Positions 2,294-24,670 of a stretch of 33,836 nucleotides of DNA are shown in pieces; position 1 is the stretch's first letter; the number at the start of each line of letters is the position of its first letter. Both the position numbers and the translations under genes were made by a program. The notes below the pieces were generated by a model, which saw only the letters and a list, made by a program, of their open reading frames with translations, was not told the DNA's origin and ran no database searches. Origin of the DNA: Brachyspira hampsonii 30446 (GTDB taxonomy: Bacteria > Spirochaetota > Brachyspiria > Brachyspirales > Brachyspiraceae); contig NZ_JH994110.1 of NCBI RefSeq assembly GCF_000316195.1, forward strand, positions 940,836 through 974,671, read 5' to 3'.

Positions 2294-2614
2294 CTCCCCG
2301 CCCTTTTTTCTTTATTACTTTATATAAAATTTCAGCTTTTATTTTTTTAAAGCTTATACAGAAATTATAGCTCCCACCCTAGTTTTTTATAAAAATTAAT
2401 ATCTCTTCAACGCACGTTAAGCAAAATAAAAAATAAAGAAAAATTAATAATACAACTTCAATTATATTTATAGCTAAACTAACCGTGCGTTAAATAGATT
2501 TTAAAACTAATACCAACTTGGGCGGGTGCTGAAATTTCTAATAGAGTAATAAATATAATTTAAATTATAAATAAAAATTTAGCCACAAAATATAAAGGGC
2601 GGGGTATGTAAATG
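2294..2614. repeat. Palindromic array I of spaced GC motifs
   Basis: In an otherwise AT-rich, gene-free stretch, six short GC motifs lie at regular distances. They are CCCCGCCC (2296), CCCACCC (2373), ACGCACG (2410), CGTGCGT (2484), GGGCGGG (2520) and GGGCGGGG (2597). Successive spacings are about 77, 37, 74, 36 and 77 bases. Each motif is matched by a reverse-complement-like partner across a common centre at about 2450, so the whole 310-bp array is mirror-symmetric. Related arrays lie at 19140-19575 and 24469-24670. The nature of the repeat is unknown. Confidence 0.8.
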
Positions 2615-2698
2615 AAATTTTATTATTATAAGTTTTAATAATTTATAATATATAGTATAATTTAAAAAGATAGTTATAATCATTTGGAGTATATACAG

Positions 2699-4084
2699 AT
2701 GCAAAAAAGAGAGAAACTAGGCAGCAGATTCGGATTTATACTAGTATCTGCAGGCTGTGCGGTTGGAATGGGCAATGTTTGGAGATTTCCATATATAACA
2801 GGACAATACGGAGGCGGTGCTTTTGTAATATTATATATCGTATCTATAATTATATTAGGTGTGGCTCCTATGGTAATGGAATTCGCGGTAGGAAGAGCAG
2901 GCAGACATGATATAGCTACTTCATTTGAGAAACTTGAGAAGAAAGGACATAATTGGCATAAAATAGGTTATATTCAAATATTGGGTAATGTTATTCTTAT
3001 GTTGTTTTATACAACTATATGCGGCTGGTGTTTATCTTATTTTTACTTTATGCTTTCAGGACAATTTGAAGGACTTAATGCAAATGAAGTTGGAAATTTC
3101 TTTAATGGCGTTTTAGGAAGTCCATCTACATTAACATTATGGATGGGTATAAGTTTATTAATTGGTATAATAATATGCTCTTTCGGACTAGAGAAAGGTG
3201 TAGAAAGAGCAAGTAAATTTATGATGATTTCATTATTTGCTCTTTTAATACTTCTTATAATCAGAGCATTAACTTTAAAAGGTGCAGTAGAAGGATTAAA
3301 ATTTTATTTAGTACCGGATTTAAATAAATTATTTGGAAACGGCCTTACAGGATTTATAGGAATATTTTACGCTGCTATCGGTCAGGCATTCTTTTCTTTG
3401 AGTGTAGGTCAGGGCGGAATGGCTATATTCGGAAGCTATATAGATAAAAAACAATCTCTTACAGGAGAAGCATTAATAATAATAGCATTAGATACTATGG
3501 TAGCTTTATTTTCCGGACTTGTAGTATTTCCAGCATGCTTCGCTTTCGGTGTAAATCCAGGAGAAGGTGCCGGACTTGCATTCGTAACATTGCCTAATAT
3601 ATTTAATTCTATGCCATTAGGAAGATTATGGGGAGCATTGTTTTTCTTATTCTTAGCAATGGCAGCACTTACTACTATAATAGGTGTATTAGAAAATATA
3701 TATTCATTTATCATGGATAAATTCAAACTTACAAGACAAAAAACTTCTATTGTATTATTTATGATATTATTTATACTTAGCCTGCCTACAACTTTAGGAT
3801 TTAATGTATTATCTAATATTAAACCATTGGGAGAAGGCACTGTCATAATGGATTTACTTGACTTTATAGTATCAAATAATATACTTCCTTTGGGTGCTTT
3901 GGTAACTCTATTTTTCTGTACAAGAGATTTCGGATGGGGATTCGATAACTTTATAAAAGAAGCTAATACGGGAGAAGGTATAAAATTTCCTAGAAGATTA
4001 AGATTCTATGTTAGTTATATACTTCCTTTTATAGTATTGGCAATATTTTTATATGAGTATATAAACAGATTTTTTTTGAAATAA
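2699..4084 (+). CDS. Sodium-dependent transporter, neurotransmitter:sodium symporter (NSS/SNF) family
   Basis: This 461-residue inner-membrane protein has about 11-12 hydrophobic helices. The N-terminal signature of the NSS (LeuT/SNF) family is clear: GSRFGFILVSAGCAVGMG followed by NVWRFPYITG, which in LeuT-fold proteins lines the sodium and substrate sites. The GQAFFSLSVGQGGM segment (TM6 region) is also typical. Relatives import amino acids such as tryptophan, tyrosine or leucine with Na+; the substrate here is undetermined. I place the start at ATG 2699, with GGAG nine bases upstream. An in-frame TTG at 2684 is part of that TTGGAG ribosome binding site. The gene follows repeat array I and appears monocistronic. 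Confidence 0.9.
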   Translation: MQKREKLGSRFGFILVSAGCAVGMGNVWRFPYITGQYGGGAFVILYIVSIIILGVAPMVMEFAVGRAGRHDIATSFEKLEKKGHNWHKIGYIQILGNVILMLFYTTICGWCLSYFYFMLSGQFEGLNANEVGNFFNGVLGSPSTLTLWMGISLLIGIIICSFGLEKGVERASKFMMISLFALLILLIIRALTLKGAVEGLKFYLVPDLNKLFGNGLTGFIGIFYAAIGQAFFSLSVGQGGMAIFGSYIDKKQSLTGEALIIIALDTMVALFSGLVVFPACFAFGVNPGEGAGLAFVTLPNIFNSMPLGRLWGALFFLFLAMAALTTIIGVLENIYSFIMDKFKLTRQKTSIVLFMILFILSLPTTLGFNVLSNIKPLGEGTVIMDLLDFIVSNNILPLGALVTLFFCTRDFGWGFDNFIKEANTGEGIKFPRRLRFYVSYILPFIVLAIFLYEYINRFFLK

Positions 4085-18342: not shown

Positions 18343-18390
18343 TTGATAATAAATAGGTTTTATATATTGCATAATTTTGAGGTATTTATT

Positions 18391-19140
18391 ATGAAAAATA
18401 AAGTTTGTGTTATAACAGGTGCAGCTAACGGAATAGGAAGAGAAACTGCTATATTTTTTGCAAAAAACAACTGCGATATAGCATTTATTGATAAGGACAA
18501 TGAAAACGGATTAAAGCTGCATAAACAAATAAAAGATATCGGCAGAGAATGCTTATTTATAAATGATAATATTGATAATGAAAAATCTATAAAATCATTT
18601 ACAGACAAAGTAATAGAAAAATTTGGAAATATAGATTATTTAATAAATAATGCATGCTATTCTAATAAAGGACTTTTAAGTAAATGCAGTTATGATGACT
18701 TTTTAGATATTTTAAAAATAGGTGCTGCTGCTCCTTATGAAATAACAAAAAATTTAATGAATCATTTCAATGAAAAAGCATGCATAATAAATATTGCTTC
18801 TACAAGAGCTTTTATGTCACAGAAAGATAGTGAAAGTTATAGTGCAGCTAAAGGAGCTATTATAGCTTTAACACATGCTATGGCTATAAGTTTATCTCAT
18901 AAATTGAGAGTCAATTCTATTAGTCCGGGCTGGATTAATACTATTGAAGATGCTTCATTCAGCAAAGAAGATATACTTCAGCATCCTAGTGCCAAAGTTG
19001 GAAAAACTTCTGATATAGCAAGCATTGCTTGGTTTTTATGCAGTAATGATTTTATAAATGGAGAAAATATTACAGCAGACGGTGGCATGACAAAGCTTAT
19101 GATATATCATAATGATGAGGGATGGAAATTAGAAATTTAA
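18391..19140 (+). CDS. Short-chain dehydrogenase/reductase (SDR)
   Basis: This 249-residue classical SDR has the Rossmann motif TGAANGIG (9-16), NNAC (86-89; usually NNAG), and the catalytic Ser in NIASTR (137). The YSAAK motif gives Tyr150 and Lys154, and the SPGWI segment follows. Aspartate in FIDKD, after the second strand, suggests preference for NAD(H) over NADP(H). The substrate is unknown. I start at ATG 18391 (GAGG eight bases upstream). A longer frame from TTG 18343 has no ribosome binding site and would add a non-family N-terminus. It ends at the first base of repeat array II. Confidence 0.9.
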   Translation: MKNKVCVITGAANGIGRETAIFFAKNNCDIAFIDKDNENGLKLHKQIKDIGRECLFINDNIDNEKSIKSFTDKVIEKFGNIDYLINNACYSNKGLLSKCSYDDFLDILKIGAAAPYEITKNLMNHFNEKACIINIASTRAFMSQKDSESYSAAKGAIIALTHAMAISLSHKLRVNSISPGWINTIEDASFSKEDILQHPSAKVGKTSDIASIAWFLCSNDFINGENITADGGMTKLMIYHNDEGWKLEI

Positions 19141-19575
19141 TTAAACGCACGGTTAATAAAATTTTATATATAAATAACATGTTATTATTAATTAACCTAA
19201 ATATATAATTTCATTTTTCGTGCGGTATATGAATTCTAAATTAAAAAAACTCTTGGGCGGGCATCTAAAATTACAGAAAAATTTTTTAAAATAATATATA
19301 ACAAAAATAACAAATAAATTCAAAAAGCCTATAGGGTGGGAATAAAAATAGGCAAAAAATCTATTTACATACCCCGCCCTTTATTCTTTGATGCTTATTT
19401 TTTAAACTCTAATTTTAATTAACATCATAGCTTACTTTGAAAAAGCACACCCGCCCAAATTTTTTTTAGATTATTGTGTCTCTTAACGCACGAAGAACTA
19501 AATGAAAAATACAGAATTATTTTAAATTAAAATTATTTATTAATAAAAAAATTTAGTACACCGTGCGTTAAATGA
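19140..19575. repeat. Palindromic array II of spaced GC motifs
   Basis: Eight GC motifs lie at regular positions in the convergent spacer between the SDR and DUF4132 genes. They are ACGCACG (19145), CGTGCGG (19219), GGGCGGG (19255), GGGTGGG (19334), CCCCGCCC (19372), CCCGCCC (19450), ACGCACG (19486) and CGTGCGT (19562). Spacings alternate at about 74, 36, 79, 38, 78, 36 and 76. The order is mirror-symmetric about 19356, each left motif having a reverse-complement partner on the right. The sequence between motifs is AT-rich and only partly similar between arrays. No gene is visible here. Confidence 0.85.
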
Positions 19576-19586
19576 AATTAAAAAAT

Positions 19587-20975
19587 CTATTTTAAATAAT
19601 TAGATAATATAAGATAAGCTCCATATTCAAATCTTTCATCAGAGTTTTCAAATTTTATTTCTATATCTGTTGTGTCATTATTAGCCGAACTATAATAAAT
19701 ATCTGATACTTCTATATACAGAGAGGCTTCATTATATGAATCATACAAAAAATAAGAATTAATAAATCCTCCATCTCCGTCTTCTTTTTCCATACCCAAT
19801 TTTAATGCAGTATTTTTTATAGCTCCTACAGTTACAGTTCTCGGTATTTTTGATATTAATTCTTCTATAGTATCCAATGATAATTGATTAAAAGGCTGAA
19901 CTATATCATAATCTAAAAGCTGATTTTTCCATTTTTCTATTAATTCTTTATTAACTTCCATAGGACTCAATAAAGTTATTAAAGCATTATCTTCTATATT
20001 CATTTCTTCATCATCAGCATTATTAAATGAACCGTCCTCCATATATCTAAAAGTGCTTAATAAATTATTATCTTTATCATACACACCCCAAATAAGCTTG
20101 ACAGCAAATGCTCTCATAAAAGGATTATCAAAAAATATTTCTTTCCACTCATTTAACGTCCATTTTCTGCCGTCCATTAATACTAATAGCAAACGCTCAG
20201 TCTGAGTCTTAAGCATTTTATTTATTTCACTTTTTAATTTTGTTAATTCTTTTTTAGGATTTTGAGGAAAATCTTTCGGAATAGTTTTATATTCTTTGTT
20301 TTTTATTTCATCAAATATTGATATACTAAAATCAGGCTTCAATGTTATTTTAAATTTTTTATTATCACTTTCTATTATTCTTATTCCATCTCTATTGAAA
20401 TCAAAATCAGGTATAATCTTATCAGCAAAAGCCTCTTTACTCATTCCAAGCCTTATAGTAATATCAGTTAAAATTCCAGAACATGTATTTCTTATACTTC
20501 GCTGTTTGAATTTTCTTGAGGCCTCATAAACTAATCCAAGTCCTTTTTTTGATGCACTTAATGCAATAGCCTCAAACATAAAACATGCTAATTTAAATCT
20601 TCCGCTTGCAATAGATACCGCCATTTTATACAAATTATCAAGCTGTATATTATTTGCAAATATGCAGTATGGATATAGTATCCCTTTAGTTTTATTATCT
20701 TCATTCCATATATTGTATATGTTATCAAGTGCCTGTGTGAAACTTTCATTGTCTAAAGAATATCCTACTAAATCGGCATTTCTTATTCTGTATGATTCTT
20801 TTATATCCAAGTATTCTCCTAAAATATATCTTATTGCCTTACTTGGAACTTTGCTGCTTTTATCTTTTATAAGTACATTTGATATTATAGAATCATCTAT
20901 AAATGAAGTAGTTTTATCAAATTTTTTATTATAATTTTTTTCTACTATATTATTAATATCTTCTAATGAAAGCAT
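19587..20975 (-). CDS. DUF4132 domain protein
   Basis: This 462-residue cytosolic protein has, in its C-terminal half, the DUF4132 pattern. Residues about 275-390 read as TLNEWKEIFFDNPFMRAFAV, KLIWGVYD, a basic/acidic strand around FRYMEDGSF, ITLLSPMEVNKELIEKWKN and the diagnostic DYDIVQPFNQL. The N-terminal half is helical and Lys-rich (LIKDKSSKVPSKAIRYILGE). DUF4132 occurs in MolR/YehI-like proteins, often with WGR domains; its molecular job is not established. No WGR domain is present here. A C45-type hydrolase gene lies 54 bases upstream on the same strand. The start has AAAGG upstream. Confidence 0.75.
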   Translation of the reverse strand: MLSLEDINNIVEKNYNKKFDKTTSFIDDSIISNVLIKDKSSKVPSKAIRYILGEYLDIKESYRIRNADLVGYSLDNESFTQALDNIYNIWNEDNKTKGILYPYCIFANNIQLDNLYKMAVSIASGRFKLACFMFEAIALSASKKGLGLVYEASRKFKQRSIRNTCSGILTDITIRLGMSKEAFADKIIPDFDFNRDGIRIIESDNKKFKITLKPDFSISIFDEIKNKEYKTIPKDFPQNPKKELTKLKSEINKMLKTQTERLLLVLMDGRKWTLNEWKEIFFDNPFMRAFAVKLIWGVYDKDNNLLSTFRYMEDGSFNNADDEEMNIEDNALITLLSPMEVNKELIEKWKNQLLDYDIVQPFNQLSLDTIEELISKIPRTVTVGAIKNTALKLGMEKEDGDGGFINSYFLYDSYNEASLYIEVSDIYYSSANNDTTDIEIKFENSDERFEYGAYLILSNYLK

Positions 20976-24137: not shown

Positions 24138-24456
24138 ACTTGTTTCAAAACTAATTTTTTATAATTTTGTGGGGACTAGCCCTGCGAAGCACACAGTCGT
24201 GCCACGCTCTGCGTGCCTTCGGCAACCCCCACTTCTTTTGTGACGCCTGTCCGCCTTCGGTGTGGCACATACGAAGTACGCCTTCGGCGAGAAGCATACG
24301 AAGTACGCCTCACTCTGTGTGCCTTTGGCAGGCGAAAGACTGCATATTTATATACTAAAATAATAATTTATAAAACATGTCAAACATTACTTTATAAATT
24401 ATAAAATTACGAAATTTTCATATATAATCTTGTCAAGTAGTTTTGAAACAAGTCTA
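24135..24456 (+). mobile_element. MITE-like element, copy 1 (complete, 322 bp)
   Basis: The left end TAGACTTGTTTCAAAACTA and right end TAGTTTTGAAACAAGTCTA are perfect 19-bp inverted repeats, starting and ending with TA. The core is GC-rich and hairpin-prone, with CATACGAAGTACGCCT repeated 27 bases apart (24268 and 24295) and several GCC-GAA-GGC style mini-hairpins. No transposase is encoded. Short frames across the core are not conserved as proteins. The left TAG serves as the selD stop codon. The right end is 12 bases from repeat array III. Confidence 0.88.
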
Positions 24457-24468
24457 TTTTTATTTTAC

Positions 24469-24670
24469 TTAACGCACGGTGAATGAATTTTTATATATAA
24501 TAAAAATAGCAATTATTATTTTGCTCATATATATAAATATGCTTATCGTGCGGTTAGAAATTCTATAATTTTTTTTAAAACTAGGGTGGGAGTGAAAATA
24601 ACAGATTAAAATTTTAAAAAAATATGAAACAAAAATGACATAAGCGATAGAAAGCCTATAGGGTAGGATT
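24469..24670. repeat. Spaced GC-motif array III (half array)
   Basis: ACGCACG (24472), CGTGCGG (24547), GGGTGGG (24584) and GGGTAGG (24661) lie 75, 37 and 77 bases apart, the same lattice as arrays I and II. They match the left half of array II in order and strand. The stretch between the last two motifs is alignable with array II, including AAAGCCTATAGGGT. With the MITE copy it fills the convergent spacer between selD and the DUF3343 gene. Confidence 0.8.

Follow-up and report, generated by a model that had tools for sequence, protein, structure and literature searches.

The stretch of DNA analysed here (the window) covers 33.8 kb of the 3.04-Mb genome of Brachyspira hampsonii 30446 (designated G000; the window is G000:C3:940836-974671) and contains three arrays of short GC-rich motifs. 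Array I occupies the gap between the stop codon of one ORF (1691-2287) and the promoter side of the next (2684-4084). The six GC-rich motifs that the original prediction had picked out in this gap are indeed there, starting at 2297 (CCCGCCC), 2373 (CCCACCC), 2410 (ACGCACG), 2484 (CGTGCGT), 2520 (GGGCGGG) and 2597 (GGGCGGG), with motif-to-motif spacings of 76, 37, 74, 36 and 77 bp, and the same motifs recur in arrays II and III, outside which there are no matches in the window. The arrangement is symmetric as well, but the symmetry is that of a dyad (reverse complement) rather than of a mirror. A protein-coding reading is ruled out for all three arrays, since none has an ORF of at least 80 aa within it.

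The motifs fall into two classes, A (AACGCACG, with its inverse CGTGCGTT) and GGGYGGG, the latter occurring either as CTTGGGYGGG (context C) or as AAAGGGYGGG (context D). They are combined in modules, i.e. [Aa], which consists of ACGCACG and CGTGCGT 74 bp apart, [GG], which consists of two GGGYGGG 78 bp apart, and [gg], the inverse of [GG] (Table 1). A full unit of ~345 bp, built of ~115-bp modules and with two dyad axes, reads A+ 74 A- 37 C+ 78 D+ 42/48 D- 78 C- 37 and back to A+; a tandem array at C3:127.5-128.7 kb has a period of 344 according to TRF, with 3.0 copies and 93% matches. Array ends coincide with module borders (types AaGG, ggAaGG, AaGGggAa and GGggAa), and two-module tandems of ~225-233 bp (C3:28.2 and 279.5 kb in G000, 2.494-2.495 Mb in G010) again point to modules of ~115 bp.

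Table 1. Arrays and motifs of the window (window positions; identities are those among the genomes or orthologues indicated)
Feature	Positions	Strand	Remarks
Array I, modules [gg][Aa][GG]	2297..2603		
Array I D motif, GGGYGGG class	2297..2303	-	86% identity, 9 orthologues
Array I C motif, GGGYGGG class	2373..2379	-	100%, 9 orthologues
Array I A+ motif AACGCACG	2409..2416	+	100%, 9 orthologues
Array I A- motif CGTGCGTT	2484..2491	-	98.6%, 9 orthologues
Array I C motif GGGCGGG	2520..2526	+	95%, 9 orthologues
Array I D motif GGGCGGG, context AAAGGGCGGGGTATGTAAAT	2597..2603	+	100%, 9 orthologues; sole remnant in G018
Array II, modules [Aa][GG][gg][Aa]	19144..19569		Fills gap of convergent ORFs 18343-19140 and 19587-20975
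Array II first [Aa], AACGCACG ... CGTGCGG	19144..19225		Motif identity 98-100%, 8 genomes
Array II [GG] module	19255..19340	+	C+ at 19255, D+ at 19334
Array II [gg] module	19373..19456	-	D- at 19373, C- at 19450
Array II second [Aa]	19485..19569		9 genomes compared; present only in G000 and G005
Array III, [Aa] then [GG]	24471..24667		Last motif decayed: GGGTAGG at 24661

Spacers in or beside modules are tightly held, measuring 68 ±1 bp in 85 of 91 cases, 30-31 bp in 82 of 104 and 70-72 bp in 96 of 111, a scatter of about ±1-2 bp, whereas the lengths of the spacer from D+ to D- fall into two modes, 32-36 and 40-42. Motif pairs thus do prefer fixed spacings genome-wide, as the original prediction held. 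As for selection on the motifs, an unselected test showed that, given A- and C+, the D+ motif is exact in 90 of 103 cases, with C or T as the central base in 89 of these 90. The spacer lengths are better described by paired ~115-bp modules than by the single lattice with every third site missing that had been proposed. At the 'missing' lattice position, ~38 bp past C+, the half-unit consensus has a weakly conserved RY..AAA core, which is possibly a weaker third site between C+ and D+. The two members of a D pair are never both GGGCGGG in G000 (0/36), being either one C-type and one T-type or both T, which gives the unit a polarity.

Array I was found in 11 genomes of the genus, in decayed form in G017; a single solo D+ motif remains at the locus in G018, and the orthologous gap of G014, G002 and G020 is without the array. 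The patchy distribution of the second [Aa] of array II evidently reflects gain or loss of a whole module among species. Just before array III, the DNA at 24200-24340 is GC-rich and has repeated CCTTCGGC and GAAGCATACGAAGTACGCC words, which look like another dispersed Brachyspira repeat.

At the level of genomes, the arrays were followed by pattern searches and in sampled stretches. The inverted A pair (AACGCACG-N55-85-CGTGCG) has 134 matches in G000 and the three-motif half-unit A- C+ D+ has 136 exact ones; either pattern gives 0 matches when reversed, and the array pattern is therefore not due to chance. Half-units are present in 23 of the 26 Brachyspira genomes searched (23 to 168 per genome), and a flanking gene has its close relatives in Brachyspira species, in agreement with the genus taken by the original prediction; there are none in G001, G003 and G019, nor in 367 other Spirochaetota genomes representing 167 genera besides Brachyspira. 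The arrays are thus a Brachyspira-wide family with hundreds of copies per genome. No mention of such repeats was found in the accessible Brachyspira genome papers and wider literature (a coverage that takes in a minority of subscription papers), in line with the original prediction, whose author knew of no such element, and they apparently represent an undescribed DNA element.

Conservation is higher in the motifs than in the intervening DNA, as had also been noted originally. In array I, motifs are 96.7% identical across ten species and spacers 80.2%, the latter value equalling that for third codon positions in the flanking genes (80-82%), with 62% of the spacer G/C bases kept. Array II gives similar figures (motifs 96.7%, spacers 84.2%, spacer G/C bases 66.9%), third codon positions near arrays I and II being at 74-82%. 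In thirteen further orthologous arrays of G000 and G004, motifs are 98.2% and spacers 90.7% identical, and G/C bases are kept at 98.9% in motifs versus 79.8% in spacers (Fisher p 3e-24), figures that are biased upward for A because the segments were picked by exact A pairs in G000, C and D having been unused in the picking. Array copies can indeed be aligned over their full length, as a diverged repeat whose motifs are separated by a weak AT-rich consensus, but the excess of motif conservation is large, which disposes of the idea of an ordinary repeat lacking such an excess. Comparison of orthologous copies indicates that selection acts on the motifs at individual sites.

It is the double strand of these motifs, we conclude, that is conserved. 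A folded non-coding RNA, or a long hairpin, had been among the original suggestions, and array I can be folded at -75.7 kcal/mol, an energy that follows from its motifs being inverted. However, in a permutation of arm pairing, arms are no more complementary within a unit than between units (0.657 versus 0.679 for 25 [GG][gg] units, 0.617 versus 0.650 for 75 [Aa] units), and the central bases of 36 paired D motifs are the mismatch C.A in 19, T.G in 11, T.A in 6 and C.G in none, so that neither arm pairing nor D central bases reveal compensatory covariation in stems. Moreover, arrays made of [Aa][GG] only exist, in which GG has no [gg] to pair with, and Rfam returned no match at its gathering threshold. 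The arm comparison and the many partnerless arrays lead us to reject a folded RNA, which contradicts the earlier suggestion and makes this reading highly improbable.

Along the chromosome, the arrays are markedly regional. The half opposite dnaA holds all 25 array clusters in G009 and 62 of 68 in G004, and 29 of 130 gaps of at least 150 bp have an array there, compared with 1 of 95 in the half that holds dnaA. In this array-rich region GC skew and gene strand change sign, with the clusters at the GC-skew minimum, and near-consensus parS pairs (G004 1.676 Mb, G009 1.593 Mb, G010 1.883 Mb, G000 C3:241 kb) coincide with the region of sign change. Earlier Brachyspira papers assumed that the origin is at dnaA; a published skew analysis placed it away from this gene (PMC3163572), and the distance of parS from dnaA supports the latter placement. 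The array centre lies 122 kb from parS in G004, 67 kb in G009 and 57 kb in G010, and concentration around parS is significant in G009 (Rayleigh p about 9e-7) and in G004 (p about 3e-13) but not in G010 (R=0.20, p=0.35). Of three complete genomes, two therefore have their arrays centred on both parS and the origin defined by GC skew; the window arrays, ~0.7 Mb from parS on C3, belong to a sparse part of this distribution.

In both G000 and G004, the pair of parS sites upstream of a gene that we take, from its translation, to be rsmI-like encloses an [Aa] module and additional GGGYGGG copies; no module stands between the parS sites in G009, G010 and G001. In G000 (C3:241434-241656) this inter-parS [Aa] is preceded by overlapping GGGYGGG (CCCGCCCGCCCACCCC) and not by a full [gg]. 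parS is far from dnaA in G004, G009, G010, G000 and G001, and parB is also away from parS (dnaA, parB and parS at 0, 0.68 and 1.59 Mb in G009, and at 0, 0.73 and 1.88 Mb in G010). A terminus domain, the reading first drawn from the position opposite dnaA, is reversed by GC skew, the published placement (PMC3163572) and parS, and a KOPS-like polarity of replication direction is dismissed since the polarity of [Aa] is unchanged across parS.

Several known systems offer points of comparison. The RacA-ram system of Bacillus subtilis (PMC4949633) similarly has many extra motif copies around the origin beside parS, and ram sites are thought to anchor the origin region (PMC4949633); the concentration around origin and parS is shared by G004 and G009, whereas the arrays of G010 are centred without being significantly concentrated. 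However, ram sites lie mainly on one side of oriC whereas the Brachyspira arrays flank both sides and, unlike ram, have 115-bp modules and two motif classes. The BIME/REP elements of gammaproteobacteria (PMC2817692; PMC6379681) are likewise extragenic, present in more than 100 copies, regularly spaced and of alternating orientation, and gyrase binds to BIME-2, which may have a part in genome organisation (PMC2817692; PMC6379681). A REP/BIME has in each unit a GC-rich imperfect palindrome forming a stem-loop, with a GT(A/G)G head (PMC2817692), whereas the Brachyspira motifs are 6-8 bp long, not self-complementary and 37-78 bp apart in a unit of ~345 bp, the half-unit consensus is without a hairpin, and neither a head plus stem nor a RAYT goes with them. 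A search for the Y1/RAYT transposase (PF01797) was positive in control genomes and negative in all 26 Brachyspira genomes, which rules out REP/BIME descent. GGGTGGG or GGGCGGG is present in some REP sequences of Haemophilus and Enterobacter, a sharing that looks coincidental.

Sites for MatP (matS) are solitary and lie in the terminus region of gammaproteobacteria; the arrays resemble these macrodomain sites in being short motifs clustered regionally along the chromosome, but they are not solitary. A ParB-parS centromere is likewise origin-proximal, and in two genomes one array module stands between parS sites, but the arrays are without a parS sequence, and G001 has parS and ParB without arrays. 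In their working, the arrays would by analogy be most like RacA-ram sites or BIMEs.

Taken together, motif selection and constant spacing favour the multi-site protein-binding or nucleoid element of the original prediction, binding itself being what we infer. Our leading, if tentative, reading, to which we give nearly even credence, is that the arrays may be binding sites for a sequence-specific protein that acts three-dimensionally on the origin region. One or two putative, probably Brachyspira-specific proteins would bind double-stranded array DNA at two site classes, ACGCACG/CGTGCGT as inverted pairs (74 bp) and GGGYGGG as direct pairs (78 bp), which alternate in orientation through 37- and 42/48-bp joints and whose ~115-bp modules are gained, lost and duplicated as wholes. 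The bound protein might bridge or wrap neighbouring modules, and the bound arrays might condense or anchor the origin/centromere region in the manner of RacA-ram or BIME type sites. The narrower version, a genus-specific centromere-like system in which a putative protein on hundreds of modular, parS-flanking arrays condenses or tethers the origin half, opposite dnaA, is conceivable but doubtful. G001, G003 and G019 have no arrays and retain ParB, so arrays are not essential to the genus; these three genomes and the diffuse pattern of G010 count against an essential segregation role. Origin-centred density could also come from a plastic region tolerant of repeats.

The position of arrays relative to genes has inspired a different explanation, a bidirectional 3'-end insulator or roadblock in which array-bound proteins halt RNA polymerase from both sides with no need for a hairpin terminator, and the dyad design is neutral to orientation. 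A transcription-end structure was also among the original suggestions. The extragenic arrays abut stop codons, often starting 1-41 bp past them, stand off from start codons and avoid divergent promoter gaps. Among gaps of at least 150 bp in 254 kb of segments, an array is present in 28 of 31 convergent versus 6 of 28 divergent ones (p 6e-8); these segments had been selected as array-containing through their exact A pairs, which biases motif counts from them upward for A. When 20-kb samples of G004 and G009 were taken without such selection, arrays occupied 9 of 30 gaps between convergent genes, 15 of 128 between genes in tandem and 6 of 67 between divergent genes. Intrinsic terminators are scarcer beside arrays: of 40 stops that have an array no more than 60 bp away, 1 has a detected terminator, as do 14 of the remaining 88. 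However, few array-less stops have a detectable terminator anyway (5/46), and a close array leaves scant room for one. Several genes have a terminator first and the array after it, so that arrays need not be transcribed, and the orthologous gap of array I is simply vacant in three genomes (G014, G002 and G020). Long convergent gaps have an array in 0 of 9 cases in the dnaA half versus 9 of 21 elsewhere, a regional clustering that a generic terminator does not predict and that argues against one; a generic intrinsic terminator is in any case set aside, no hairpin plus T-run having been reported for the window arrays, although the terminator scan is weak evidence. On balance, we consider a roadblock rather unlikely.

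A parasitic or neutral dispersed repeat of the MITE/REP kind, spreading by modules and surviving where promoters are not hit, would account for the high copy number, the tandem expansions, the gain or loss of whole modules, the presence or absence between species and the avoidance of promoter gaps. Yet old copies hold their motifs at orthologous sites while their spacers drift, which dead copies should not do, and the genus is without the transposase mentioned above. A MITE would have terminal inverted repeats together with a target-site duplication; [Aa] has inverted ends, and comparison by eye of occupied and empty array I sites revealed no clear target duplication, though the empty gaps are diverged. 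Such an origin of the pattern is, in our judgement, improbable, and binding sites for an origin-region protein would remain the better account.

Brachyspira, a genus of intestinal spirochaetes, includes important pig pathogens, yet its chromosome biology is little known and its origin has been placed inconsistently in papers. The arrays provide densely placed cis elements that are under selection and open to testing, and together with parS and GC skew they point to an origin away from dnaA. Should they be insulators, the separation of genes that have no hairpin terminator would be explained; if a protein that binds them is found, origin domains would be seen to be marked and handled in a new way.
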